DNA from: a virus
IMG/VR virus record: IMGVR_UViG_3300037234_000222
Coordinates: 1 to 52,588 of that record
DNA length: 52,588 bases
Direction: 5' to 3' (one strand)
Shown: positions 1-52,570 of the stretch, in pieces
Position numbering within the stretch: position 1 is the first letter of the stretch
Layout: every line of letters starts with the position of its first letter
Notes under the pieces: generated by a model
What the model saw: only the letters and a program-made list of their open reading frames with translations
Told to the model about the DNA's origin: nothing
The model's database searches: none
Made by a program: the position numbers and the translations under genes

Positions 1-1095
1 TTCAAAGTTATCTTCTTTGTACTCATGAGTAGGTGACTTTCTGGAAGCTTTTTGTGCTACATACTGATCAAAACCAGCATCCAGATAAGAAGAATCAGAA
101 TCAAATCTTGCTTGGTCGTATCCTTCAGCACCTTTAAGAACTGCCTTCTTGATAACTTCAAGAGGTTCGTTTTTGATCTCTTCGAACTCTTTTGAATCCA
201 TCCGACTCTTTGCGCCTTCCCAAACCTTTAAGGTTTCTTTGGCAATAACTAGAGCCTTTTCATCAATAGTTTTTGAATCGTTTCTTTCTTCAAGTTCTTT
301 TTTAGCGGTGGACAATTCGCCCGACATGCTATCAAACTTGGCATCTCTTGAAGATAAAAGATTCTTAGCCGTATGGCCAATATCTTCCATCCTGTTTCTT
401 AGCAGTTGAACTGCCGCCTCTGCACCTTCGGGAATCTCAGTATGAAAAGAATCAAACTTCTTTTCCCCAATGGTAAAGGCTGGAATTTCAATTTTCATTC
501 TCGATTCCCCTTGCTGTTGTTTATTGCCTTGCGGCTGTGATTGCTCGTTTTCATCTACTTGCCAAGCCCCGTTGTCTAGGCGGATAGAGCAACCTTCCCC
601 CCTTCCTTTAATGGTGCTTGTGAGATGGTTGTAAACTATGTTTCTTTGGATTCTGTCGTACTTGCCGAACTCTGGATCAATGCCTGATTTGTCTTCGATG
701 TCGCATTCATAGCCAGCCGATACGTCAAGTGCATCTTGTTTTGTGATCTTGGAAACGCCAGCTTCATCATGTACCGCCACGGATACTTCGAGAAATAGAC
801 CGTCTTCCCTAACGCTTTCACCTGTCGAGCCAACTGAATGTGCTTTTACGGTCTTTGAGGTGAGAAGCCCGCCTTTGTGTTCTAGGCTGAATGGCTTCAT
901 AGTTAAAGTATTCATTGAGTCTTGCTTGAATACTTCTTCTCTTGGCCTCAATTCTCTAGTCACCTTGCCAGACTTATCTCGATAGATAAAGACTCCGGCT
1001 CTGGTCGCACGAACACGATCAAGACGAAGAAACCCGTTCTTGTCTGGCGTGAGCTTGCCTAATTTATGAGTATGTTTGTCTAGTCTTAAAACCAT
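1..1095 (-). CDS. DUF2213-type prohead protease/scaffold protein (C-terminus cut by window edge)
   Basis: 365 codons are open from the ATG at 1095 to the window edge with no stop. The N-terminal ~200 residues resemble the DUF2213 family, which sits just before the cement and capsid genes in many tailed phages and is thought to act as prohead protease and scaffold. The segment HSVGSTGES and the later DVSAGYECDIE fit its core. Residues ~200-365 are charged and helical, suitable for a scaffold. An internal ATG (MKIEIPAF) could give a scaffold-only product, as in protease/scaffold nested genes; that is inference. There is no Shine-Dalgarno before the ATG; a sigma70 promoter lies directly upstream instead. 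Confidence 0.75.
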   Translation of the reverse strand, partial: MVLRLDKHTHKLGKLTPDKNGFLRLDRVRATRAGVFIYRDKSGKVTRELRPREEVFKQDSMNTLTMKPFSLEHKGGLLTSKTVKAHSVGSTGESVREDGLFLEVSVAVHDEAGVSKITKQDALDVSAGYECDIEDKSGIDPEFGKYDRIQRNIVYNHLTSTIKGRGEGCSIRLDNGAWQVDENEQSQPQGNKQQQGESRMKIEIPAFTIGEKKFDSFHTEIPEGAEAAVQLLRNRMEDIGHTAKNLLSSRDAKFDSMSGELSTAKKELEERNDSKTIDEKALVIAKETLKVWEGAKSRMDSKEFEEIKNEPLEVIKKAVLKGAEGYDQARFDSDSSYLDAGFDQYVAQKASRKSPTHEYKEDNFE

Positions 1096-1100
1096 AGCGA

Positions 1101-1130
1101 ATTATAAACAATCTTTTAAGTATTCGTCAA
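1101..1130 (-). promoter_or_regulatory. Sigma70 promoter giving a probably leaderless DUF2213 transcript
   Basis: On the minus strand, TTGACG (1125-1130), an 18-base spacer and a perfect TATAAT (1101-1106). Only five bases (TCGCT) separate the -10 box from the ATG at 1095, so the predicted start of transcription is at or next to the A of the ATG. It probably starts the protease-cement-capsid operon independently of the membrane cassette upstream. Confidence 0.7.
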
Positions 1131-1442
1131 GCGTTCTTTTGCTGTTTTATATATCTCTTGCAACTCTTCATTACCTGAAATATACCATTCAAGAAGTCTA
1201 ACGTGAACCTCGAACCAATAACCTAATGAAACTAAAGAAATAAATAAGGCTAAATAAACCATTCTAATGATAAATCTAGCCTTTAATGATTGAACCCCAT
1301 CTCTTTCAGCATCTGTATTTTCTGCATATGCCATTGTCAATTTATAGGCATACACCAAAGAACCGAAGCATAAAAGCAGGGGCCAGTAAATTCTAATCAG
1401 AGTCGAAAGTCCGAATACGGCTACTAGATCGAATGGATTCAT
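1116..1442 (-). CDS. Small membrane protein, two transmembrane segments
   Basis: 108 residues with hydrophobic segments at roughly 5-33 and 60-78, then a charged C-terminal tail. The start overlaps the stop of the upstream gene (TAATG), so translation is probably coupled. It is the last gene of a cassette of membrane and exported proteins that interrupts the head module. Family not recognised. Confidence 0.7.
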   Translation of the reverse strand: MNPFDLVAVFGLSTLIRIYWPLLLCFGSLVYAYKLTMAYAENTDAERDGVQSLKARFIIRMVYLALFISLVSLGYWFEVHVRLLEWYISGNEELQEIYKTAKERLTNT

Positions 1443-1996
1443 TAGTTATACCCATACTCAATCAGGGTTGATTCTGGAAGCTGCCTCATAAGGTCGAGTG
1501 CTTTCCTCATCTCATCAAGCTCGGCCTGAGTAAACCCAGTAGCAGATGGATCAATATATTCGGTATGCCCACTAAAAGCGAAGATCAAAGAACCAATTAC
1601 GCCCATGCAAAAGATGAATATTCCAAAGCTCTTATCCGCCGCAACGAATGGTTCAAAACCTGTACTTGGGAACCACATAGCCGTAAATTGCCAGAACGCT
1701 GCATACCCAATAAGCCCACCAACAAAAAGCTTTCCTAGATACTTCAAGGTAGGGTTGAATTTTGAGGAAGCAAACAGCATCATTGAAAAGAAGTTCAAGG
1801 CAAACAAGCCCCCTTCAAGACTGAATGGATCAATTGAATCGGACCCCATGTATCCAGTGGTCGCAAGTGAGATAGTCACCCCGATAAATAAAACATACAT
1901 TACAACATGAATTTGCTTTAGCTCGTTCAGTTTATCATAAAGCGACTGTAGCCACTCTTGAATTGTCTGGTCTGCCTTCTCTGTATTAAATGTCAT
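1442..1996 (-). CDS. Polytopic membrane protein, about four transmembrane segments
   Basis: 185 residues from the ATG at 1996 (preceded by GGGGGAC), chosen over an upstream ATG that lacks a ribosome site. The N-terminal ~35 residues are amphipathic (TIQEWLQSLYDKL), followed by hydrophobic segments near 33-52, 63-78, 86-104 and 123-140 and a soluble acidic tail. The start overlaps the preceding gene by 11 bases. Family not recognised; a role as the core membrane part of the cassette is inference. Confidence 0.72.
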   Translation of the reverse strand: MTFNTEKADQTIQEWLQSLYDKLNELKQIHVVMYVLFIGVTISLATTGYMGSDSIDPFSLEGGLFALNFFSMMLFASSKFNPTLKYLGKLFVGGLIGYAAFWQFTAMWFPSTGFEPFVAADKSFGIFIFCMGVIGSLIFAFSGHTEYIDPSATGFTQAELDEMRKALDLMRQLPESTLIEYGYN

Positions 1997-2279
1997 TTTG
2001 TCCCCCACTATAAAAAACTGCAATATTTTTAACCTCTTCGCTCTTAACCACCTTAACTAAAAACGGATAGTTTTTATTTTGATAAAGGCAATAATGATAC
2101 TGAGCATATTTTTTATGGCCGCCCTTATTAAAGCTTTCAAAGTCGATAGCCCTATTAGTTTTTGAAAATGAATACAATTCGCAATATGTTTCCTTGTCAG
2201 TTCTTACCGCACCATCAATATTAACTGCATAAATGCTTGATGGGATAATAAAAAACGCTGCCAATAAAATCAATCTCAT
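1986..2279 (-). CDS. Exported small protein of the membrane cassette
   Basis: 97 residues from the ATG at 2279, which has AGGAGG eleven bases upstream; a longer frame exists but has no ribosome site. The N-terminus (MRLILLAAFF, then SSIYA) is a typical Sec signal peptide with cleavage after residue ~19. The mature part contains two cysteines, which could form a disulfide in the periplasm. No family recognised. Confidence 0.7.
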   Translation of the reverse strand: MRLILLAAFFIIPSSIYAVNIDGAVRTDKETYCELYSFSKTNRAIDFESFNKGGHKKYAQYHYCLYQNKNYPFLVKVVKSEEVKNIAVFYSGGQNDI

Positions 2280-2923
2280 TCTGCACCTCCTAAGTCGATT
2301 ATACATCTAAACATCTTCTTTCCACTCCACCCATCATCACCACCGTCAAAGAATCCCTCTTGTGGTCTTTGGACAACGCTTGCTGATTTAACTTCCTTCT
2401 CTGTAGCTGGATAAGCATTTTGGGAATCACAAAGATCCATTGCATCTTCAGAGATAAGATTTGAGTACTCAATTTCTAACGGCTTCCCATCCCTAAACCA
2501 AACATCTTTCATCACAAAAATATCTTTCTTATCGACAACCGCATATTGATAAACATCCCGCATTGGCACACCAACTGTTTCTTGGAAGTCCTTTGCAGAT
2601 AATGTTTGATAGATTGGGTGCCGATTCAATACCGTACTCTTAAAGGCCACCTTTGTGATCTTCTCAGTAACAGGCTCTAACCCCCCACTTGCAAGGTGGG
2701 TCGATACCTCTTTAATATCCTTTACAGTCCATGAGTAAATACCAAGCGTACTGACTAAAACTAAGATGGTCCCATAGAAAAGGAATTTCCAAATATACCA
2801 CTGGAAGGTAAGGATCAACAAACTTCTCAGAGTTCCAATAAATCCGCTTTTAGTCGCCCAACTATCAGCCTCATGTGATTCACTTAAGCTTGGCTGACTG
2901 TTATATTCGTTTGGGTCAAACAT
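2276..2923 (-). CDS. Membrane-anchored protein of the patatin-like cassette
   Basis: 215 residues: a soluble polar N-terminus (~1-25), one long or two short hydrophobic stretches at ~29-67, then a ~145-residue domain with two cysteines (DLCDSQ and FRCIIDL) that is probably periplasmic. The gene overlaps the patatin-like gene upstream by 8 bases and the exported gene downstream by 4, so the products are likely made together. No family recognised. Confidence 0.7.
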   Translation of the reverse strand: MFDPNEYNSQPSLSESHEADSWATKSGFIGTLRSLLILTFQWYIWKFLFYGTILVLVSTLGIYSWTVKDIKEVSTHLASGGLEPVTEKITKVAFKSTVLNRHPIYQTLSAKDFQETVGVPMRDVYQYAVVDKKDIFVMKDVWFRDGKPLEIEYSNLISEDAMDLCDSQNAYPATEKEVKSASVVQRPQEGFFDGGDDGWSGKKMFRCIIDLGGAE

Positions 2924-4025
2924 TGACTACCTCCTTTCCGCTCATGATTGCCGCTTCAATGTATTTCTTTCTTGAATCGAAGCGTTTTACTGCATCAATT
3001 GGCTTGGCCTCATATGCAACTAGGTTATTGCTTGGCCTTCTACCGCTTCCCAATAAATGCTCTTTCATGATCACAGCTATATTTTGAAGTGATCTTGTTC
3101 TTTGGTTGTGGTTGTAAATCCTTTGGGGGCAAGTAATATTTGTAACCAGCCCCGTATTATTGATCAAGAAACTAACAGATGACCTTGTAAAATCCCCGGC
3201 CATAATACTATATCCCTTTGCAATTGGTTTTGTATCAAAATCAATTGGGTCAAGTACGGTACACATCAAAGCTTGATATACTGGCATTACTGGAAGTTCT
3301 TTCTTTGTGATCAGCAATGTTCGCCCTGAAATATCCATTGCTGGAATGAAAAGCTCTTTGGACAATTGACCCATTAGCATATCCCGCCCGTTTACCTTGA
3401 ACGCTTTTCTTAATGCCCTTTCAACCTTCTTTGGGTTTCTCTGACCTGTTCTAAGGTACTTTAAACCGCCTCTAGTAGCCTTTCTTAGCTCTTTACCCCA
3501 CCATAAGGATAGATCATAAGTAGACCGCCCGGCTGCATACCAAGCGGCGATAATGGCCCCAAAGCCAACACCTGAAAACAAGTCGTAAGTTCCAGCCAAG
3601 TTTGCTTGTTCTTTCGCTTCCAAGTCTCTGGCAATCTCGATGAACCCAAAACCCCTTGTGTAAAAGCACTGGTCAAAGCAGATAGCCCTCTTGTAATTAT
3701 GCCGAATGAAAAGCTTTTTCCGGCCTTCAATGATGGACTCTCTGAAATCTTGGCTGCTCTTTTGCTCAATCATATAATTGGCAATTGGATGCCCATCCTC
3801 ATGAATCACAAGCTTTAGAGTATCATTTGGCTGAAATGAATTAAGATCAAGTTTTAAGGCTTGCTCAGTCATTTGATCAACGATGATCTCTTTTTTTGTC
3901 GGGTTGCTGTTTAGTAGCTGGACCTCTACCCTTGGCGCACGTTCGCCTGACAGATTGATTTCAACCAGCTTCTTTTTGCCGTTTGGCACTTTGATCGTGA
4001 ATGGTCTTCCTACTACCTGTTCCAT
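2916..4025 (-). CDS. Patatin-fold protein lacking the catalytic dyad (pseudo-phospholipase)
   Basis: 369 residues. Residues ~1-105 form a beta-rich N-terminal domain; ~112 onward match the patatin fold. Known patatins have an oxyanion loop DGGGxRG, a nucleophile elbow GxSxG and a DG[GA] aspartate. Here the equivalents are FDQCFYTRG (117-125), SGVGFGAIIAA (151-161, serine replaced by glycine) and SIMAGDF (273-279, no aspartate at the dyad position). The surrounding residues (TYDLF before the elbow, AAG after it, VYQALMCT before the last motif) still align, so the fold appears kept while catalysis is lost. It could be a structural, lipid-binding or regulatory protein. Neighbours are exported and membrane proteins. 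The fold call is fairly secure; the role is unknown. Confidence 0.72.
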   Translation of the reverse strand: MEQVVGRPFTIKVPNGKKKLVEINLSGERAPRVEVQLLNSNPTKKEIIVDQMTEQALKLDLNSFQPNDTLKLVIHEDGHPIANYMIEQKSSQDFRESIIEGRKKLFIRHNYKRAICFDQCFYTRGFGFIEIARDLEAKEQANLAGTYDLFSGVGFGAIIAAWYAAGRSTYDLSLWWGKELRKATRGGLKYLRTGQRNPKKVERALRKAFKVNGRDMLMGQLSKELFIPAMDISGRTLLITKKELPVMPVYQALMCTVLDPIDFDTKPIAKGYSIMAGDFTRSSVSFLINNTGLVTNITCPQRIYNHNQRTRSLQNIAVIMKEHLLGSGRRPSNNLVAYEAKPIDAVKRFDSRKKYIEAAIMSGKEVVNV

Positions 4026-4026
4026 A

Positions 4027-4302
4027 TCAGTCTTCTATTCTAACGGTTATGTTTTGCCCCGGCATTGATCGAATCAAGGCGATGGTTAACTCTTGAGCGT
4101 CCTTCTCAGATGCCCCTTGTGCTATTAATTCTTTCTTGTACGACATAATAAACCCAGCTAGAGCCTTTGGAATCTTTTCATTCTCTAAAGTGCTAATGAT
4201 CATCTCTGTCATTATCTTGCTCTCTATCTCATCCATAAATGGAAGTGAGAAGGCGTTTGTTGTGATTAGGATGAACCCGATTATTAAGCTAAATTTTTTC
4301 AT
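4027..4302 (-). CDS. Small exported protein preceding the patatin-like gene
   Basis: 91 residues with a clear signal peptide (MKKFSLIIGFILI, then TNAFS) and a helical mature part. The ATG follows directly on the stop of the preceding gene (TAAATG) and the next gene starts one base after its stop. It looks like the first gene of the membrane cassette. No family recognised. Confidence 0.68.
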   Translation of the reverse strand: MKKFSLIIGFILITTNAFSLPFMDEIESKIMTEMIISTLENEKIPKALAGFIMSYKKELIAQGASEKDAQELTIALIRSMPGQNITVRIED

Positions 4303-4557
4303 TTAACCCTTGTTGTTCATATTTTGAAGCATCATATACTTGACGAACTCCATTTCACCAATAAGCGCATTTGACACTTTCCCATAAAAAGTTTGACCTG
4401 TTAGACCGTTCTCTTCACGAATAATGCTCAAGCCAGAAACACGCCCGCTCTTTACCTTTTCGATTTCACCTTCAAGGCATTTAATCATTCCTTCCTTAAG
4501 ATGTTCCCATTTCTCTTTTTTCTCTTTCTTAGGTAAAACGTGAATTTTATCACTCAT
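4303..4557 (-). CDS. Small hypothetical protein of the head module
   Basis: 84 residues, lysine- and glutamate-rich at the N-terminus (KKEKKEKWEHLKEG), soluble and without motifs I recognise. It sits tightly between the head morphogenesis gene and the exported protein, with start and stop codons almost touching on both sides, so it is probably translated as part of the head operon. Confidence 0.6.
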   Translation of the reverse strand: MSDKIHVLPKKEKKEKWEHLKEGMIKCLEGEIEKVKSGRVSGLSIIREENGLTGQTFYGKVSNALIGEMEFVKYMMLQNMNNKG

Positions 4558-5385
4558 TTAATCCTCATATACGTTTTCAGCATAACACCGACATTGAATA
4601 TCTTCCCCCGGATGATTTCTCTCACCCGCTCGTTTTCCTGTGGTAACTGTTACAGGCGGTTTATTCCAATCCTGCTCAGTTCCGTTTAATTCTTCGTGCC
4701 TATCTCGCTCCCTTCCATCAATGTTGGTGTGCCAGATATATTTTGTAACCCCGTTTCCTGTGGCCAATTGTCTTTCAAGCTGGCCGTTAATGCTGGATAC
4801 CTGATCCCTTGCGATTAGTTGCGCCCGTTGCTTTGATACTCCGAACTCTGCCTTGATCTTTGTGGCAATCGTGCTGTTTAAATCACCCCCTTGGAATCCA
4901 TCAGATACGATCCGATAAACATCATCGAAGTATCCTTGGCCTAGACTTGTGATCATTTCCACGTTTGATGCCGTTGCTGTATCAATGTAATCACTCAAGC
5001 CCGGTACATTCTTAATTGGGTCTACACCCTGAATCTTTTTGTGGCTCCGTTTGAACTTTGACCATTGAGCCGCTTGCACACCTCGAATCATTAGATTGAC
5101 AATATTCCTCTCAACAAACCCAGAATATCGGATCATGTTTGGCTGTTCACCTGCTTTTAACCTTTGACCGAAGAAAGTACCCATTGCAAAAGCAAAAGCG
5201 TCTTGTAAGCGGTCTAAAAGTGATTTCGTTGCATCAAGCCTTGTGTTACCTCTTATCTCCTCTAGGTTCGCAATTATAAGCTCATCAATGATCTTTTTAA
5301 GCCTTCGCATCTCTTTTGTTATGTTGCTTGCATAACTTTGGGTCTTCGTTTTGATGTATCTTGGCTCTGAGCTTTTCTTGGTCAT
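4558..5385 (-). CDS. Phage head morphogenesis protein (Mu gpF-like)
   Basis: 275 residues. The C-terminal ~110 residues carry the Mu F-like head morphogenesis domain: RAQLIARDQVSSINGQL, then YIWHTNIDGRERDRHEELNG and a closing HPGEDIQCRCYAE. This family is a minor capsid protein found next to the portal, needed for head assembly and possibly DNA ejection. Here it is separated from portal by three virion-protein genes. It overlaps the upstream Tad2-like gene by 4 bases. Confidence 0.9.
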   Translation of the reverse strand: MTKKSSEPRYIKTKTQSYASNITKEMRRLKKIIDELIIANLEEIRGNTRLDATKSLLDRLQDAFAFAMGTFFGQRLKAGEQPNMIRYSGFVERNIVNLMIRGVQAAQWSKFKRSHKKIQGVDPIKNVPGLSDYIDTATASNVEMITSLGQGYFDDVYRIVSDGFQGGDLNSTIATKIKAEFGVSKQRAQLIARDQVSSINGQLERQLATGNGVTKYIWHTNIDGRERDRHEELNGTEQDWNKPPVTVTTGKRAGERNHPGEDIQCRCYAENVYED

Positions 5386-5594
5386 TCAGATACAACCCAA
5401 TCTTCAGAAAAAAGTTCGATCATTGTTTCTTTCCATGGGACTAGGCCAAATCGTGACTCAACATATAAATATGGGGCTGTCATTTTGCTGTGTGCATCTG
5501 GAAATTGTGCCTTGATAACTACATCTTCAGACCATTGAGGCAACCTCATACATTTTCCATTTTTTACTTCTTCAAGTGCTTGCCCAAAATTCAT
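5382..5594 (-). CDS. Tad2-like (DUF2829) anti-Thoeris protein
   Basis: 70 residues matching the DUF2829/Tad2 pattern: start MNFGQALEEVKNGK, the basic-aromatic MRLPQW, and the end LVPWKETMIELFSEDWVV. Tad2 proteins of other phages bind and sequester the cyclic ADP-ribose signal of Thoeris defence in the cytoplasm. The length is near the low end of the family. It is wedged inside the head operon between a structural gene and the Mu F-like gene. Family assignment is from pattern memory; activity is inference. Confidence 0.75.
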   Translation of the reverse strand: MNFGQALEEVKNGKCMRLPQWSEDVVIKAQFPDAHSKMTAPYLYVESRFGLVPWKETMIELFSEDWVVSE

Positions 5595-6481: not shown

Positions 6482-7041
6482 TTTAAGAATTCCTCTTGTG
6501 AGCCTAAGCTATCTTGTTGAAAATGGAAATCGATCTCATAAAGAAACGCACCAGAGCCATAATCATCAGCCCCATCAGCTACGTCTCGGAATACACGGCA
6601 TAGAAATAGCTGTGATAGTTCCCATCCCGTTGTATCTATCATTGCGAGATCAAAATATTGATTCTGCTTTGCTGTTCCGCTTGCGGTTGCCGCATTTGTA
6701 ACTATTGTAGTGGTCGATAAGTCCCCATCAATAGCAGCCGCTACATATTCAAGCCCCCATACAACACCGCCCGCACCCGCATCTGAAGCACCCCAATGAA
6801 CATGGCAATCTAAATCAGTACCGATCAGCCAACTATGAGGCATCTGAGCTACAAAGTATAATTCCTGTTCTTGATTCTGGCTAAACGAATAAGTGAATAC
6901 CCCTTGAGATCCAGCCCCATTATCCCCTACCTTTGTAAATGTTGGGTCTTTAGTTCCACCCACCTTTGTCGAAGTGATTGGGAACCTGAGATCGGTCCAG
7001 TTTGTCCCACGACTTACTGGTATTTTTAAAGGATCACCCAT
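6478..7041 (-). CDS. Virion protein, jelly-roll-like
   Basis: 187 residues. The opening WTDLRFPITSTKVGG and the later LYFVAQMPHSWLIGTDLDCHVHW resemble uncharacterised phage virion proteins with a beta-sandwich fold that often accompany the DAFGRxR-type protein encoded just upstream. Its start overlaps the upstream stop (TAATG). Receptor or head-decoration role is inference. Confidence 0.68.
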   Translation of the reverse strand: MGDPLKIPVSRGTNWTDLRFPITSTKVGGTKDPTFTKVGDNGAGSQGVFTYSFSQNQEQELYFVAQMPHSWLIGTDLDCHVHWGASDAGAGGVVWGLEYVAAAIDGDLSTTTIVTNAATASGTAKQNQYFDLAMIDTTGWELSQLFLCRVFRDVADGADDYGSGAFLYEIDFHFQQDSLGSQEEFLK

Positions 7042-8324
7042 TATTCAAACTCCGTAAAATCAATGGTTGATTGAACATCAGAAGTAGTGCTTTCTGCATT
7101 GGCATAAACTACAAACAGCTCTGAGTTGGTTGAATCAAGATTTTGAGAAATAAAACTATGCTTGCTTGTCTCAGAAGTTGAAGAGTCTGTGGAATCGCCT
7201 TTCGCCCCTGCTACAATGAAATCGCTTGTAAACCTGTGGATGTCACCACCTACGATTACAATTGGGCCTGTCTGTCCAGCGTTCTCAACTGCTTGCTCAA
7301 TTCCACTCTCCGCCGTGTCAATGTCTTCCCAATTCGCATCAATAGAAGTTATCCCCCTTACCTGAGCAACTTGGAATAGAACATCTTTCCCGACTGCCTT
7401 AAAGGTGGCATGGTTGAAATGCGCCGTCCTTCTATTCTCTTTGGATTTAAATGTATTCTTAAGCCTCATTACCAAGATAGGGGTAATCGCATGCTTTTCT
7501 GTTACTGGCGATGTAACTGGTACTGTTCTTGCCAATAGCCCGTTTGTTGCCGTAAATTCAAATCCTAATGGTGTTCCTTCACCTTCGGTATAAACAGCCG
7601 AACAGATTTGCTTGATTGAGTCGCCTGTAGTGCTTCCAAAGTCTCTTATTTCATAGCTTACAGGTAGCGTAGGAGTTCGCATATAAACAATATCAAGCTC
7701 ATTTGAGTGGCTCTCTTCATGGCAAATAATACTTATCCCGCCAATATTTAAATAAAACCTAACCCTTCCAGCCCCTAACCATTGAATATCAAAAGAAAGG
7801 ATTTGTGACTTCGTAATATCTAAGGTAAGTTTACTAGGCCCTGTTCCATCCAGCTTATCTTTATTCCATGCGGATTGGAGAATCTCGTTTTCAACTGCCG
7901 ATCCAGATGCATCCGATCTAATGACGAACTTTAAATCAGCTCCGTCATCTTCAAAATAAACACCGTTTAGATGATCAAAATACCCGGCTCGCTTGGTTAC
8001 ATTTGCCGTACTCGCACCAAATATTGTAGTAAGATCGATTAAATGACTTTGCCCTGAAACGTATGTGAAATACCTTGATGATCTTCTAATGGCATAAGAA
8101 CCATTAGTTCCATTAGTTGACATCTGAACAGATGATTCATCCGAAAGATAAGTGATCGCTCCACCCACCGCAAAGTCCTCATTCCAGAAATCAGACCCAC
8201 TATCAAATAAATGCTTACTTTCAAAAAGCATCTTTGGTTTTGATTGTCGGAATCTTCCGAACGCATCTACCGCCGGACTATCGGCTGGTATAGTTTGAAT
8301 TACAGTTGGGTCAAGGCTGCTCAT
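7041..8324 (-). CDS. Virion structural protein of the DAFGRxR type
   Basis: 427 residues. Residues ~20-36 (DAFGRFRQSKPKMLFES) match the N-terminal signature of a widespread group of phage structural proteins, often annotated only as virion protein. The rest is beta-rich and without membrane segments. It starts two codons after the 20-residue KPKP peptide ends (TAGATG). Together with the next two genes it makes a fibre-like block in the head module, an unusual place for receptor-binding genes. Confidence 0.75.
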   Translation of the reverse strand: MSSLDPTVIQTIPADSPAVDAFGRFRQSKPKMLFESKHLFDSGSDFWNEDFAVGGAITYLSDESSVQMSTNGTNGSYAIRRSSRYFTYVSGQSHLIDLTTIFGASTANVTKRAGYFDHLNGVYFEDDGADLKFVIRSDASGSAVENEILQSAWNKDKLDGTGPSKLTLDITKSQILSFDIQWLGAGRVRFYLNIGGISIICHEESHSNELDIVYMRTPTLPVSYEIRDFGSTTGDSIKQICSAVYTEGEGTPLGFEFTATNGLLARTVPVTSPVTEKHAITPILVMRLKNTFKSKENRRTAHFNHATFKAVGKDVLFQVAQVRGITSIDANWEDIDTAESGIEQAVENAGQTGPIVIVGGDIHRFTSDFIVAGAKGDSTDSSTSETSKHSFISQNLDSTNSELFVVYANAESTTSDVQSTIDFTEFE

Positions 8325-10713: not shown

Positions 10714-10913
10714 AAGCAAAACTAACAATTGAGCCGGGGTGTGAAGCTGGCAGTTTGTATTGTGGGGAGTGTCGGAATCTAGGGGATATTGGATATTTCT
10801 CTTGTGATCAGTTTTCAACAAAACAAAGCATGATGAGAGTTCTTCGTTCAAAACAAGGAAAACCTAAACGCTGCCAACCCTGCCTAGATGCAGAACAAAA
10901 GGAGGAGAAATGA
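10710..10913 (+). CDS. Cys-pair small protein, paralogue of 33157-33477
   Basis: 67 residues. Contains SLYCGEC and CQPCLDAEQ; the plan K(L)TxxxxCExxSLYCGxC ... RCxxCLDxEQ is shared with the protein at 33157-33477, so they are paralogues. The four paired cysteines suggest one zinc site. The ATG overlaps the preceding stop (ATGA). Confidence 0.65.
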   Translation: MKAKLTIEPGCEAGSLYCGECRNLGDIGYFSCDQFSTKQSMMRVLRSKQGKPKRCQPCLDAEQKEEK

Positions 10914-11161
10914 TTGACCCAACTACTGCGTGGACTATAATTATTTGTGGAGTGCTTTTTTGCTTACTCGTTTTCTTATTCCAATGTAGTTACGGACTTG
11001 GGCTATCGTATATACTCGTATGTTTTATTGTTATGGTATCTCTTATTTTTTCCTTTGCAGATTATTCAAAGCAAAAAACAGGTAGTTATATTACAATAAC
11101 TTGTTCTCAGAAATGCGTTTCTAAAATTCTTTCTAACTTGGAGAAATCACATGAAAATTAA
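10910..11161 (+). CDS. Small membrane protein, two transmembrane segments
   Basis: 83 residues with hydrophobic segments at ~8-25 and ~30-50 and a polar C-terminus with two cysteines. GGAGGAG lies just before the ATG and it overlaps its neighbour by 4 bases. Could be a holin-like or exclusion protein; nothing in the sequence decides. Confidence 0.62.
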   Translation: MIDPTTAWTIIICGVLFCLLVFLFQCSYGLGLSYILVCFIVMVSLIFSFADYSKQKTGSYITITCSQKCVSKILSNLEKSHEN

Positions 11162-11420
11162 ATTACTAACCGCAATCCTGCTCTTGTGGGGTTGTGTTGC
11201 TTTTGGGGGTGAGGTTCAAGACAAGGTGGCCTCTTTTACTCTTGAATGTATTAAAAACGGAAATCCAATGTCAGATGAGGAACCTGAAGATTTAATTAAG
11301 GAATGCAAAAGAACAGCATTTGCTATCTATTGTGTTGTAAACTGGGCTGGCGTGCCTGATTGTGCATACAAAAAGAAGGCAGTTGTACCTAAGACCTGTG
11401 GGGGTAAAGATGGCAACTGA
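11151..11420 (+). CDS. Small exported protein with six cysteines
   Basis: 89 residues. Signal peptide MKIKLLTAILLLWGCVAFG, with cleavage after AFG likely; a lipobox reading (LLWGC) is also possible. The mature part holds LECIK, KECK, AIYC, PDCAY and KTCGG, suggesting disulfides in the periplasm. Superinfection exclusion or envelope role is inference. Confidence 0.62.
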   Translation: MKIKLLTAILLLWGCVAFGGEVQDKVASFTLECIKNGNPMSDEEPEDLIKECKRTAFAIYCVVNWAGVPDCAYKKKAVVPKTCGGKDGN

Positions 11421-18308: not shown

Positions 18309-18535
18309 TCTTTTGTCTCTATGAATAAGCCAGTGTCTGTGTACCCTGTAACCTTGTGAGTTACGCCATCCAAATCAAAAGAAAGAGTAATGTCACCGGG
18401 ATAATACAGATGCTTCCCAACAACCGTATCCACAAGCCCAAGGTATGCACAAATGCTATCGGCTATCCATTGGATAAAACCACCACCGTTGTGCATTCTT
18501 TGGAGCCTGTAATAAATCTTTGCTGATCTACTCAC
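18305..18535 (-). CDS. Hypothetical protein (GTG start preferred)
   Basis: About 76 residues from the GTG at 18535, which overlaps the lipoprotein stop (GTGAGTAG) and follows GAGGTCAGG. A longer ATG-initiated frame would overlap the upstream gene by 47 bases. The protein has a basic N-terminus and the stretch HLYYPGDITLSFDLDGVTH, which suggests a small beta fold. No family recognised. Confidence 0.5.
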   Translation of the reverse strand: MSRSAKIYYRLQRMHNGGGFIQWIADSICAYLGLVDTVVGKHLYYPGDITLSFDLDGVTHKVTGYTDTGLFIETKE

Positions 18536-18986
18536 CCCTGACCTCATAAATCTTACAGGCGTTCTCAGCCCCAATAGTTGACATCCCCCGCTTTTTTAAG
18601 AGGGGTAGCTTGTTGCAATCAATAAACTTTGCTTTGTCGGTATTCCTGAAGGGTACTGGCTCCCAAACATCCCCGCATTCACGAATCATTACCCGTTGAA
18701 CGCAAGTGTGGAGCGCAATGTCTAAGGCTTCCCCTGCATAGGTATCAAGGGCATCCTTTTCAATTTGGGAAAAGGCTCTTGATTTGTCGCTAATGATCCG
18801 CTTCTCTTGAAGTACCGGGGCGTTTTGGATTGCATCAAGTTCATCATAACACCTTGCAATCCCTGCCTTAAGCTTCTTTGCCGCCTTTAAATCACATACA
18901 GGGGCTAGCTTGATTAGGTTTGGGGTTGTTGGCTCTAGTGCTGTGCAGCTTGATAGGATGATTGCTAAAATTAGTAGTTTTTTCAT
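18528..18986 (-). CDS. Lipoprotein, possible outer-spanin-like
   Basis: 152 residues. Signal peptide MKKLLILAIILSSC with lipobox LSSC at residues 11-14, so the mature protein would be lipid-anchored. Six more cysteines occur in the mature part. It is next to a small membrane protein (18983-19204), a layout seen for spanin or lysis genes, but the protein is longer than usual outer spanins and not proline-rich. Lysis role is only a possibility. Confidence 0.65.
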   Translation of the reverse strand: MKKLLILAIILSSCTALEPTTPNLIKLAPVCDLKAAKKLKAGIARCYDELDAIQNAPVLQEKRIISDKSRAFSQIEKDALDTYAGEALDIALHTCVQRVMIRECGDVWEPVPFRNTDKAKFIDCNKLPLLKKRGMSTIGAENACKIYEVRGE

Positions 18987-19204
18987 TCTTCAACCCCTTT
19001 TACTTTGATACCGATGATTTTATCATATAACGACCTAGTAACAAGGCTGTGAACCATTACGATTAAAAAAGCATCCCAATAACCAATTTCTGGAAGGCCC
19101 AAGTGAACTAATTTATTCCAAGCCCAGCTAATAACAAAAGGCCGAATAAGAACTAATGCCCAAAATACAGTGAATTCCGATAGGCTATCTGTTGTTTTTT
19201 TCAT
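18983..19204 (-). CDS. Small membrane protein, two hydrophobic segments
   Basis: 73 residues; hydrophobic segments at ~11-30 (FTVFWALVLIRPFVISWAW) and ~44-57 (AFLIVMVHSLVT), basic C-terminus (KIIGIKVKG). GAGGATGAA precedes the ATG. Overlaps the lipoprotein start by 4 bases. Size and topology would suit a holin; not proven. Confidence 0.6.
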   Translation of the reverse strand: MKKTTDSLSEFTVFWALVLIRPFVISWAWNKLVHLGLPEIGYWDAFLIVMVHSLVTRSLYDKIIGIKVKGVEE

Positions 19205-24468: not shown

Positions 24469-24497
24469 GTTGTGGTCATAATAAAGGTTATCTACAC
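24469..24497 (-). promoter_or_regulatory. Promoter overlapped by CACAAC dyad
   Basis: Plus strand GTTGTGGTCATAA (24469-24481), six bases, then TTATCTACACAC: a dyad. On the minus strand, TTGAAA, a 16-base spacer and TATTAT overlap it, so the dyad would cover the -10 and spacer of a promoter for the 24456 gene. Confidence 0.55.
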
Positions 24498-25211
24498 ACT
24501 TTCAATTCGTTCTTGCGCAACCTTGAAATACCCCTCATCATTTTCAATTCCAATGAATTTACGATTGAGGTTTTTTGCTGCTACTCCAGTTGATCCGCTG
24601 CCCATTGTGAAATCCAGTACGGTTTCGTTTTCGTTGGTGTAGGTCTTGATTAGGTATTCTAGTAGGGCTACTGGTTTTTGGGTTGGGTGGACTTTGCCTT
24701 TTTGAGAGGCATTACTTACTTCTAAAATTGCCTTCGGGTATTTATGCGTGTATGCCTTGTTTTCAGTAAAGGCATTATTATTTATCTCAGATTTATTCCC
24801 TTTGTTTCCTCCTCTATATTTTACCTTATCCCGTTTAACCATAATCGGGAAGTAGTTGACTTTTTTACCGCTCTTTTCAAATATCAATATATTTTCAAAA
24901 GTTTTAATCGGTTGTATTTTTGATAACAGAGGATTTCCTCCTTTCTTTTTATCCCACACCCAATCGTACTTGTAATTCTTAATATTACTCATTCTCAAAG
25001 CACTACTAAAAGGCTCACTGCCAAACAAAACGATGGCCCCATTAGGCTTGACAACCCGTTTCAACTCAGACCACATAGGCTCAAACGAAATTATGCTATC
25101 CCATTTGCAGGCCGTGGTCCCATAAGGTGGGTCAGTCAAAATCATATCAACCGACCCCGCAGGAATATCTTTCATCTCCTCCAAGCAATCGCCTAGGATT
25201 AGTTCAATCAT
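24492..25211 (-). CDS. DNA methyltransferase (DPPY type)
   Basis: 239 residues. Catalytic DPPY at 27-30 and S-adenosylmethionine-binding FTMGSGSTG at 201-209, so the catalytic motif precedes the cofactor motif. The fold is the small phage adenine-N6 or cytosine-N4 methyltransferase type (HPTQKPVALLEYLI before the cofactor motif). It may protect phage DNA from restriction. No cognate restriction enzyme is adjacent. Confidence 0.9.
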   Translation of the reverse strand: MIELILGDCLEEMKDIPAGSVDMILTDPPYGTTACKWDSIISFEPMWSELKRVVKPNGAIVLFGSEPFSSALRMSNIKNYKYDWVWDKKKGGNPLLSKIQPIKTFENILIFEKSGKKVNYFPIMVKRDKVKYRGGNKGNKSEINNNAFTENKAYTHKYPKAILEVSNASQKGKVHPTQKPVALLEYLIKTYTNENETVLDFTMGSGSTGVAAKNLNRKFIGIENDEGYFKVAQERIESV

Positions 25212-35691: not shown

Positions 35692-36105
35692 TTACTTACT
35701 AAACTTCTTGATCATTTTGCTATCAGAAAAGAGATGAACGTAGCACCCAAACCCAAAGGCTAGCGATTCGTGGAAGTACCCAAGCTTGTACCCGGCAAGG
35801 GCAAGTAAGGGGGGCAATAGAATTGAATGAGTCCAGCCCCTATGCTTATCCGTCTTGGCAAGCATGAATAGAAGGCCTATGAGGGCGGCGGGATAAGGAT
35901 TGTCTGCCAGTAGGAGGAGAAGGGAACCAGCAACACCAAATCTCGCCGCCCATTTAGACGGTGTGGAATGAATATCTAAATCAGGGAAAAGACCACCCAA
36001 GAAAGCGTATGAACCAACAAGTACGCTCAATCCTTGAGTTGCAGCAAGTGAGGAAACTGCAAGCCCCGCTATGATTGATCCTCTTAGGTGGCCTTTAAAG
36101 TTCAA
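35692..36105 (-). CDS. YdjM-like membrane-bound metal-dependent hydrolase
   Basis: 137 residues. Metal-site motifs in order: H6, PDLD (41-44), HRGWTHS (88-94) and HLFSD (124-128), interleaved with hydrophobic segments. This is the YdjM/DUF457 family of inner-membrane hydrolases, some of which are LexA-regulated. Substrate unknown, probably lipid or envelope related. Last gene of the late operon. All expected motif residues are present. Confidence 0.82.
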   Translation of the reverse strand: MNFKGHLRGSIIAGLAVSSLAATQGLSVLVGSYAFLGGLFPDLDIHSTPSKWAARFGVAGSLLLLLADNPYPAALIGLLFMLAKTDKHRGWTHSILLPPLLALAGYKLGYFHESLAFGFGCYVHLFSDSKMIKKFSK

Positions 36106-36911
36106 AACAAGCCTAGCTCAATTCCTGCAAACAGTTCAGCATCGCCTAGGTTGTGATAGGTATTAATGTCTCTTGAGCCGTTAGGTGCATCATTGAATTT
36201 AAGGCCCCCATAGAGCTTATTGGACCCCACGTAATACCCAATACCAAATTCAGCTAAAAATTGATCGTCACCCACTGTATCGGCTTTAGGTGATCCATTT
36301 AGCCAGACTCTTGAAGAATCCATGATCACCATTCCCATTTGGGCATACATTTCGAATCCCGGTGCTACGTCAAAGTGAAAAGTCGCATGGCCCCACCAGC
36401 GCATAATATCCAGAGAGTCAGAACCTTGATCAGCTACAAATGGAGTGCCAGCAAGCTTGTACGCTTGATACTTCGCCCCAATTGAAAACGAAGGGTTGAA
36501 ATAGTAATGGTAGGTAAAAGCAGACGGTGCAAAGTGAGAGGTAAATTGTCTTCGATAGCCTAGCTCATGAGGCATGTAATAAATTCCCCAATTGATTTGA
36601 AGGGAATGGAGCTTGTCGTATCCAATCCGCTTTACATAGTTTTGCTTGCCATCTAATACACTTTCCCAAGCTTGAATTTCACTTGATAGGGTTCCCGGCC
36701 TTTTCGCTTCTGATTTTCTGGATTGCTTTAGGTTGTATCTGTATTTACACTCCTCAACTGATCCTTTAGTAAAAGGTAGATGATTAGCACCCATACAAGC
36801 GGCCCTCGCATTCTCAGTAAAAAACATGATCGCAAAGATCACAACGGCGGCAAATAGCAGGAACTTAACAATCCTTGCTGGCCATGTAAAAGGGTTTAAA
36901 AATCCTAACAT
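36102..36911 (-). CDS. Outer-membrane beta-barrel-like protein
   Basis: 269 residues. A hydrophobic signal segment (~14-33) followed by ENARAAC suggests export. The rest alternates aromatic strands (QINWGIYYM, FTYHYYFNPSFSIGAKYQAY, GFEMYAQMGMVIM, FLAEFGIGYYVG) and ends in ELFAGIELGLF, with the terminal Phe typical of BAM-recognised barrels. About 8 strands fit. It could change the host surface to block other phages or detach progeny. Rare in phages. Confidence 0.7.
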   Translation of the reverse strand: MLGFLNPFTWPARIVKFLLFAAVVIFAIMFFTENARAACMGANHLPFTKGSVEECKYRYNLKQSRKSEAKRPGTLSSEIQAWESVLDGKQNYVKRIGYDKLHSLQINWGIYYMPHELGYRRQFTSHFAPSAFTYHYYFNPSFSIGAKYQAYKLAGTPFVADQGSDSLDIMRWWGHATFHFDVAPGFEMYAQMGMVIMDSSRVWLNGSPKADTVGDDQFLAEFGIGYYVGSNKLYGGLKFNDAPNGSRDINTYHNLGDAELFAGIELGLF

Positions 36912-38126
36912 TTATCCTCCGTATAGAGATAGTTTTGGTGTAGCCGTTCCATATACGGGCCAGCTTGCGTAATCTGAACTTGTATCAAAGCTTCCGTGGG
37001 GTACAGCTTCGTAAAGCGGTAAGTTGCATGATGCCACGTTTCGAGCAACAAAGAAGTAATCACCAGCCCCTAGGGTTACGCCAAAGGTAGCTTGATTTAT
37101 ACCCGGTGTAGCCCCGCCATAATCACGACTTGGCAAGGCCCCGTTGCTTGGGGTTCCTGTGGCTACGATTCCACCGCCTAACTTTGGGTCAACATTGTGA
37201 ATCTCTACAATATCTGAGTCGCAAGTATAGCTTGCGTAGTCGATCAAAGTAGCGGCCCCTAGTGTGAATGGAATCACGATATAAAGAGGAGTTCCCAAAT
37301 TCACCGAAGCGGATTGAGTCATACCCTGATTCAGTACCGTGGATTGAAGCCTTGAAGGGTCGATTGTTGTCATTAGCGGCGTGAAGTCGGTTACAGTACC
37401 GCCACCATGGGTTGCAAGGTAGGCATTGGTGTTTGTGATCACCTGTTGGATGTCTACCGCCTGTGCGCTTGTCTTTAGGGTGTTTTTGTTGGCTGTGGTC
37501 AGGGTTCCATCAGATAAGTCATTTCCTAGATCACCTAAGATAAGCTCAATAGCCTGTTCACTTCGGCCTTGCTGGATGATTGAGGAGATTGCAAGAAGCG
37601 GATCACTCCCAGAGATAGACCATTGGTTTGCACCTGTTGCAGATGGAACCCCAAGGATTTCTTGGGATAACTCAGAGCTTGCTTGATCAATCGCCTGTGC
37701 CATTGTAGACCCAGATTGAACTAAAACTTTAGCCCTTGGCATGATCGCAAAGGTGGCTACGTTTATATTGTTTGGCCCGGTCTCTGGTAGAAGATAAGAC
37801 CATAAATTGATTCGGCTTGAACTTACTGACCCGGTATTTTCGTTGAAGTAAAAACCGTAGGCGTTCACAACTCCGTAAGCCGTACCGGGGTCAAGTGAAA
37901 CAGTGCTAGAATAATTACCTAGGTTGTCGTCAATATAGGCCGTTGCCGTGTTTCCTGTTTGGACTGAAAAGTTTGAATCTGTACCGTAGAAGGTTACAGG
38001 GCTTCCAAATTGAAGAGTCCCTTTCTCTGCCGTGCCATCTACTGTAAAGCTGCTAGGCAATTGGTTACCACCGCCGCATCCAAACAATGCTAGTGCTAGC
38101 GCAATAATTATATAATTCCTCACCAT
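36912..38126 (-). CDS. Large surface lipoprotein
   Basis: 404 residues. Signal peptide with lipobox LFGC at residues ~14-17 followed by GGGN; then a beta-rich domain (GTAEKGTLQFGSPVTFY), a helical middle with INVATFAIMPRAKVLV and a C-terminal beta domain. Starts in the 3' end of the tail gene (TGGTGA). A lipoprotein is not expected in a virion, so host surface alteration is more likely. No enzymatic motif seen. Confidence 0.7.
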   Translation of the reverse strand: MVRNYIIIALALALFGCGGGNQLPSSFTVDGTAEKGTLQFGSPVTFYGTDSNFSVQTGNTATAYIDDNLGNYSSTVSLDPGTAYGVVNAYGFYFNENTGSVSSSRINLWSYLLPETGPNNINVATFAIMPRAKVLVQSGSTMAQAIDQASSELSQEILGVPSATGANQWSISGSDPLLAISSIIQQGRSEQAIELILGDLGNDLSDGTLTTANKNTLKTSAQAVDIQQVITNTNAYLATHGGGTVTDFTPLMTTIDPSRLQSTVLNQGMTQSASVNLGTPLYIVIPFTLGAATLIDYASYTCDSDIVEIHNVDPKLGGGIVATGTPSNGALPSRDYGGATPGINQATFGVTLGAGDYFFVARNVASCNLPLYEAVPHGSFDTSSDYASWPVYGTATPKLSLYGG

Positions 38127-42064: not shown

Positions 42065-42414
42065 AGCTGAATACTTACGGGTTCAGTAAAAATTGTTTTA
42101 ACAGTTGCATTCAATGTCAATACCCTATCGGTTCCAAGGTTTAAATTATACTCAGTCAATTCAAGAACGCCCGGTGTTTCAAGGATGCCTTGCTTGAACT
42201 CTGCGTTCATTTCAGAATCAATATTAGGTTTTCCAAGAATTGCCGAATTATCGAGTCCAAAATCAAGATTCAAAAAATAAGTATCCTGTCTTGAATCTAA
42301 CCGTAAATACATTGTTGCTTTAATAGCTTCTGAATCTTCGGCCATGTTAACCCTTCCATTAGAAACATCTAAATCACCATCGCCAGTAAGCTTAAACGCC
42401 TTGAGTGTTGCCAT
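42061..42414 (-). CDS. Baseplate gp25/gpW-like protein
   Basis: 117 residues. DGDLDVSNGRVNMAEDSEAI, LRLDSRQDTYFLNLDFGLDN and the closing LNATVKTIF fit the small gp25-like baseplate family that initiates sheath polymerisation. It lies directly before baseplate J as usual. Confidence 0.82.
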   Translation of the reverse strand: MATLKAFKLTGDGDLDVSNGRVNMAEDSEAIKATMYLRLDSRQDTYFLNLDFGLDNSAILGKPNIDSEMNAEFKQGILETPGVLELTEYNLNLGTDRVLTLNATVKTIFTEPVSIQL

Positions 42415-42602
42415 TAGTCAATAAGCTCGTCTTTTCTATCTGCAATCTTTTCTTGCAAATTACCAACTGACTTTTTCACTTTGCAATATGCCTTTGAAAT
42501 TCCTTTCTTACCCCAGCAATATGGAAGCTCCATTTTTGCTGAGGAACAAGAAACAGAGATAAATGCGAAAGCGATCAATACAACTAATTTTTTTAATCCC
42601 AT
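42414..42602 (-). CDS. 62-residue predicted lipoprotein in the baseplate operon
   Basis: Signal peptide MGLKKLVVLIAFAFISVSCS with possible lipobox SVSC at 16-19, then a short basic mature part with three cysteines and a helical end (NLQEKIADRKDEL). A small lipoprotein here is unexpected; it may be an outer spanin or an immunity lipoprotein. It overlaps both baseplate neighbours. Confidence 0.62.
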   Translation of the reverse strand: MGLKKLVVLIAFAFISVSCSSAKMELPYCWGKKGISKAYCKVKKSVGNLQEKIADRKDELID

Positions 42603-52079: not shown

Positions 52080-52570
52080 TATACGCTCCAAGTGAATCTA
52101 ATTGGTACAACATCACCAGTAACTCCATTTTCTTGGAATATAGCTGGAATATCTGAGGCGGCGGCGGTATCCGCATCACCTCTAAAAGTCCAAACTGAAC
52201 TAGCACCTGCGGTATGTACCGCAAATACAGGCTCGCCTTTTGTGACAGTATCCTCAACAAGAACATATACAACGCCTTCAACTGCTACAGGTACACGATC
52301 ATTAGTCGCATATTCAGTCCCTGTTGTAGCAGATGCAAGTGGGATTTCTTTTGCGCTGCCAAATACTGCAATTCCAGCAAATTGATTTGGTGTGAAATCG
52401 GCTACTGGCAACAAGACTTGAGATCCCGGATCAGTGCCACGAACCAAAGGATAACCCGGTTCGATTGCGGTTGTGTCTTCGTTCAATAGAGCTTCGGTCT
52501 TGACAAGATCAAAGTTCGCAGGAACACCCTTCAAAGCAATGGCAGGATTTTTATCCATGGATGTTTGCAT
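52079..52570 (-). CDS. Capsid cement/decoration protein
   Basis: 163 residues. ALKGVPANFDLVKTEALLNE, GYPLVRGTDPGSQVLLPV and GVVYVLVEDTVTKGEPVFAVH have the layout of phage structural cement proteins (DUF2190-like) that stabilise the shell; it precedes the major capsid gene as usual. AAAAGGAG lies before the ATG (52576-52583). Confidence 0.75.
   Translation of the reverse strand: MQTSMDKNPAIALKGVPANFDLVKTEALLNEDTTAIEPGYPLVRGTDPGSQVLLPVADFTPNQFAGIAVFGSAKEIPLASATTGTEYATNDRVPVAVEGVVYVLVEDTVTKGEPVFAVHTAGASSVWTFRGDADTAAASDIPAIFQENGVTGDVVPIRFTWSV

Follow-up and report, generated by a model that had tools for sequence, protein, structure and literature searches.

What are six genes for exported, membrane-bound and patatin-like proteins doing inside the head module of a phage? 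We addressed this question in a 52,588-nucleotide stretch of DNA (the window), an IMG/VR virus record of a phage known only from environmental DNA. Pfam and PHROGs recognise a tail sheath, baseplate, portal, Mu F-like protein, DUF2213 protease and major head protein, which identifies the carrier of the cassette as a myophage, and it is an unclassified one. Our best explanation, held tentatively (probability about 0.35), is that the cassette is a late envelope-acting module and possibly forms all or part of the lysis machinery.

Both contig ends (positions 1 and 52588) abut inside the head operon, with the protease gene exiting at position 1; when the ends are joined, the head gene expected next, at 52570, follows the protease. 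The frame continues across the junction from the protease into that gene without a stop, so the joint has probably lost or gained a few bases, and the genome is probably, if not provably, circular and nearly complete. Scanning for TerL recovered a second contig (L094; 7.7 kb, 99.99%), a copy of the same phage that matches the window over 13518-5782 with one mismatch and ends before reaching the cassette. No RNA families or tRNAs were found.

Envelope-type genes also occur elsewhere in the window. After the tail fibre genes, 35692-38126 (minus strand) encodes a lipoprotein, a YdjM-like membrane protein and a barrel-like protein with a membrane segment at its N-terminus, and lysis or envelope functions could reside there instead. 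At 10910-11420 (plus strand) and 18528-19204 (minus strand), a short hydrophobic protein is encoded beside a signal-peptide or lipoprotein gene, an arrangement that is holin/spanin-like by layout only; between the baseplate genes, 42414-42602 (minus strand) encodes a small lipoprotein of 62 aa whose size recalls an outer-membrane spanin. Two other genes have relatives in distant company. The structural protein of 7041-8324 (minus strand) shares 35-38% identity with proteins from cyanophages and from phage HMO-2011, whose genomes are otherwise unrelated, and on these matches its gene is a putative mobile virion gene; a DNA methylase (24492-25211, minus strand) has relatives of 54-59% identity in MAGs labelled Lokiarchaeota, Flavobacteriaceae, Leptospiraceae and Gammaproteobacteria, which give no host signal.

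The cassette and the head operon

The original prediction described six overlapping genes between a head morphogenesis gene and a DUF2213 protease, and minus-strand ORFs lie at the positions claimed (4302-4027, 4025-2916, 2923-2276, 2306-1986, 2023-1442 and 1442-1116). Their per-codon scores (0.15-0.29) are near those of reference genes (mean 0.27; wrong frames, mean -0.09), so all six are genes; codon usage in the cassette resembles that of the head genes, and GC3 ranges among its members from 0.30 to 0.47. The interval is laid out as follows.

4558-5385, minus strand: Mu F-like head morphogenesis gene, upstream flank (Pfam PF04233, E 1.5e-16; phrog_324, E 1.6e-52)
4303-4557, minus strand: 84-aa soluble protein, joining the Mu F gene to the cassette without a gap
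4027-4302, minus strand: 91-aa protein with a Sec signal peptide, MKKFSLIIGFILITTNAFS; mature part charged and free of Cys
2916-4025, minus strand: 369-aa patatin-fold protein, predicted to be catalytically dead
2276-2923, minus strand: 215-aa protein with one N-terminal membrane segment (residues ~44-62) and a domain of ~150 aa
1986-2279, minus strand: signal-peptide protein (106-aa ORF); the ORF opens at 2306, the better start is 2279
1442-1996, minus strand: membrane protein (193-aa ORF); the ORF opens with TTG at 2023, the better start is ATG at 1996
1116-1442, minus strand: 108-aa two-segment membrane protein, its start overlapping the preceding stop by 1 bp
1101-1130, minus strand: sigma-70-like promoter match, TTGACG-18-TATAAT (11/12), the best in the region; faces the protease
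1-1095, minus strand: DUF2213 head maturation protease, downstream flank, running off the contig (Pfam PF09979, E 3.4e-29; phrog_530, E 1.2e-56)

The cassette is thus shorter than the 1-4302 first assigned to it, since 1-1095 is the protease, and it does not directly follow the head gene: the seventh, 84-aa gene (4557-4303) stands in between and touches both. This soluble protein has a weak full-length match to phrog_796 (E 0.028) and none by tblastn against phages. With starts supported by Shine-Dalgarno sequences, neighbouring cassette genes either overlap by 1-11 bp or lie 1 nt apart. AGGAGG precedes the starts at 2923 and 2279; at 2279 it lies 6 nt upstream, and this start overlaps the preceding stop by 4 bp.

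A signal peptide or membrane segments mark five of the six products, which are predicted to be envelope-targeted. In the 215-aa protein, the ~150-aa domain would be periplasmic if the N-terminus lies inside; it has two Cys, no family and no solved relative. The 193-aa protein had been called a four-segment protein, which is plausible, with two segments alone being strong by hydropathy and two weaker ones probable. The 108-aa protein has the size and segment number of a small holin (1-3 membrane segments) but matches no holin family in Pfam or PHROGs, and the 91-aa protein has no family in the family libraries. As first stated, nothing besides the patatin fold matches a family in Pfam, PHROGs, NCBIfam or PADLOC. 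Translational coupling and the mostly shared destination also agree with the proposal of one functional unit.

It had further been proposed that a strong promoter isolates this unit from the capsid genes, and here the evidence points the other way. The promoter match (1130-1101) stands at the end of the cassette, not upstream of it; its -10 element ends 6 nt short of the protease ATG (1095), and promoter-like sites are at chance level (22, against 20.6 +/- 4.3 in shuffles). From the Mu F gene to the patatin-like gene the minus strand showed no terminator-like site; the cassette itself contains a weak one (1812-1797, 5 pairs), and sites of this kind occur at chance level. Because the junctions of the 84-aa gene are unbroken and the promoter is aimed at the protease, the cassette does not stand apart from the head genes; stop-to-start coupling through the 84-aa gene to the Mu F gene places it in the head operon. 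The simplest reading is that it is transcribed together with the head genes.

Searches for relatives returned nothing credible: not tblastn against phages (four of the six proteins), not tblastn against plasmids and a genome scan for the patatin-like protein, not IMG/VR pattern scans for three cassette proteins, and not whole-genome searches in 296 and 398 genomes. Three patatin hits in the whole-genome search are no more than chance predicts for so many genomes, the sole match of the 193-aa protein runs across a stop and is likewise at chance level, and the 108-aa protein had no match among phages. The exported proteins of 4027-4302 and 1986-2306 were searched against family libraries only, and the pattern scans require near-identical stretches of eight residues. 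Approaching through flanking genes, scans for the MCP, Mu F and protease were empty, and the phrog_1645 protein led to 80 loci that share that gene alone. Within these searches, which were of limited sensitivity and may have missed records very close to the window, no relatives were found, and the cassette appears to be an orphan.

The patatin-like protein

The patatin fold predicted for the 369-aa protein is upheld by several lines of evidence. Pfam PF01734 matches residues 147-256 (E 2.6e-5; 24.9 bits, curated cut-off 27.7), models of CBASS phospholipases match it in PADLOC (E 1.3e-6) and NCBIfam (E 6.5e-5), a profile of 20 patatins gives it 14.3 bits as compared to at most 4.8 in 2000 shuffles, and hhalign assigns a probability of 94.9%. 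The NCBIfam model, NF041079, scores 22.3 bits, below its curated cut-off of 200. A CapV-like profile scores higher than a general patatin profile (21.4 versus 12.9 bits), a weak preference because CapV lies within the broad patatin clade. The protein has an extra N-terminal region of ~100 aa, predicted with low confidence to be beta-rich; its single-sequence AF2 model was uninformative (pLDDT 37), and the quality of such models for two cassette proteins was too poor to use.

Three motifs define the patatin domain: GxSxG, DG[AG] and the oxyanion glycines (PMC9095652). All three are missing here: firstly, the shape of the nucleophile elbow is conserved (DLFSGVGFGAIIAA), and the nucleophile position is occupied by Gly154 (codon GGC, 3564-3566, minus strand), giving GVGFG in place of G-x-S-x-G; secondly, D-G-[A/G] occurs nowhere in the protein by regular expression; thirdly, the oxyanion motif G-G-G-x-[K/R]-G has no counterpart, the region reading DQCFYTRG and the protein containing no GGG. 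Ser occupies the nucleophile position in 22/22 compared patatins, a count that is not independent because most of them, the 20 search-built rows, were picked by a motif containing that Ser; independent support for Ser comes from RssA, phage WO and the curated motif (PMC9095652). The catalytic Asp position reads MAGD in a three-sequence alignment and is a gap in two larger ones, so this pairing is less certain than that of the Ser, but DG[AG] is absent in any alignment. With three motifs lost, a sequencing error is unlikely and the protein is probably not a phospholipase; it is most likely a pseudoenzyme.

The Mu F-protease junction in other phages

We compared the interval between the Mu F gene and the protease in other phages, checking homology to the window's protease, and likewise the Mu F genes, in seven phage records and reading two further Vibrio records from annotation and a Mu F match. 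Nothing lies between the two genes in Rhizobium phage RHph_I65, Faecalibacterium phage FP_Brigit, Tunavirus SH2 and Vibrio phage 1.016.O; the interval contains a single LysM gene in Lactobacillus phage LBR48 and four reverse-strand genes in Edwardsiella phage PEi21, and in Vibrio phages 1.149.O, 455E52-1 and 1.106.O carries larger cargo that includes an M15 peptidase and a TM-helix protein, together with an HNH endonuclease, tRNAs and others; as the records were hand-picked, the proportions of empty and filled intervals mean little. In 455E52-1 and 1.106.O the stretch read stops short of the protease, and the closing flank is taken from the common gene order with 1.149.O.

Pfam confirms the M15 peptidase in 1.149.O and 1.106.O; "TM-helix" is the records' own annotation, and these proteins matched no holin family. 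The Vibrio peptidase and TM-helix genes (L191, 3726-4608; L193, 9781-10723) lie downstream of Mu F and, in 1.149.O, before the protease, a long way from the expected site of lysis genes. The statement that head modules normally lack membrane genes was therefore too strong, and the junction is clearly a variable cargo slot, able to hold lysis-type genes.

Possible functions and known systems

This slot is filled here by a translationally coupled operon of six genes. On the reading we favour, it would be transcribed with the head genes, be expressed late and target the host envelope towards the end of infection, most likely providing all or part of what the phage uses for lysis or egress. Its two multi-segment proteins may have a holin-like action in the inner membrane, the anchored and exported proteins may act in the periplasm, and the inactive patatin domain would serve as a lipid-binding or regulatory scaffold and not as a lipase. 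Envelope targeting and head-operon coupling favour lysis, and the M15 peptidase and TM-helix protein in the Vibrio slots, the LysM protein in that of LBR48 and the patatin-based cassette proposed for phage WO point the same way. No lysis enzyme is recognised elsewhere: outside the cassette, neither Pfam (nearly all of the genome) nor PHROGs (most of it, with one table giving the best 25 of 93 families) revealed a lysozyme, amidase, peptidase, holin or spanin; the Mu F protein's weak match to an Rz-like PHROG (E 0.027) was disregarded. Reaching lysis by elimination in this way argues from absence; lysis genes are often divergent, and the genome may hold an unrecognised endolysin.

Several observations weigh against lysis. 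No cassette member is detectably similar to any holin, endolysin or spanin, no peptidoglycan hydrolase is recognised by Pfam or PHROGs among its members or in the genome, and patatin catalysis is unavailable. Six genes are many for a lysis cassette, and the other membrane, signal-peptide and lipoprotein genes (35692-38126, 10910-11420, 18528-19204 and 42414-42602) could serve instead. The lysis reading leads narrowly, with superinfection exclusion and unrelated accessory genes as close rivals.

Superinfection exclusion or envelope remodelling is possible, if unlikely: exported and membrane proteins would alter the surface or the DNA-entry route and so block injection by other phages, with the patatin-like protein as a membrane-associated scaffold. 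The five envelope-targeted products suit this as well, as do the lipoprotein, barrel-like protein and YdjM of 35692-38126, but a head-operon position is late for such a function, one or two proteins usually suffice, and no similarity to known exclusion proteins was seen. A little more doubtful is a gathering of independent accessory genes, without joint function, in a tolerant slot; the unrelated cargo of PEi21 and the Vibrio phages and the spread of GC3 speak for it, while the single strand, near-zero spacing throughout and common envelope theme do not. Least probable of all, to our judgement, is that one or more products are packaged in or attached to the head. A location within the head operon is all that suggests a virion component; signal peptides and membrane segments are unusual in tailed-phage head proteins, and four phages with homologous head genes have nothing in the interval.

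The lost active site lends itself to an anti-defence role, which we consider improbable. The dead patatin would be a decoy of a CapV-type CBASS effector and would block it through mixed oligomers or ligand binding, and a Tad2-like gene (5382-5594, minus strand; Pfam PF11195, E 3.1e-13), which lies within the head operon immediately before the Mu F gene, would be a second anti-defence gene. Tad2 proteins bind Thoeris and CBASS signals. CBASS phospholipase models are the best family matches of the 369-aa protein and every active-site motif is lost; the preference for CapV is weak, however, the match is confined to a portion of the patatin domain, the N-terminal extension does not resemble CapV, and five envelope proteins are left unexplained. 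Cyclic dinucleotides are ligands of Tad2 proteins (PMC12043709). Hardly more probable is a CapV-like dead patatin acting as decoy or scaffold in a dedicated envelope system of several genes that has no known relatives; it would be either an anti-CBASS pseudo-effector or a lysis system that does not depend on an identifiable peptidoglycan hydrolase.

Together, these results describe a real orphan cassette, directed to the envelope, in a known kind of place and with one unusual member. If it lyses cells, the proteins it uses resemble no known holin, endolysin or spanin and include a patatin fold that has lost its enzyme activity; otherwise, the dead patatin is a candidate means by which the phage counters phospholipase-based immunity. 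In both cases, the Mu F-protease junction is worth inspecting for unrecognised lysis or anti-defence genes.

Among known systems, CapV (NF041079) is by score the patatin subfamily closest to the 369-aa protein, but the latter reaches 22 of 200 bits, lacks any catalytic motif, has a different N-terminus and has no recognised cyclase nearby. In phage WO, a patatin and holin-like cassette has been proposed to replace the endolysin, a precedent that is itself untested (PMC9203015). There, as here, a patatin-family gene stands beside small membrane proteins and no endolysin is recognised, but the patatin of WO reaches 87 bits with PF01734 and retains GTSTG and DGG, whereas these motifs are lost in the 369-aa protein; lysis by an active phospholipase, as proposed for phage WO, was rejected for want of the active site. 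The slot here also differs, being the head module, and no other gene is shown in common. Although their genes have no detected homology to the cassette and much of their cargo is on the other strand, Vibrio phages 1.149.O, 1.106.O and 455E52-1 carry it at the very same Mu F-protease position.
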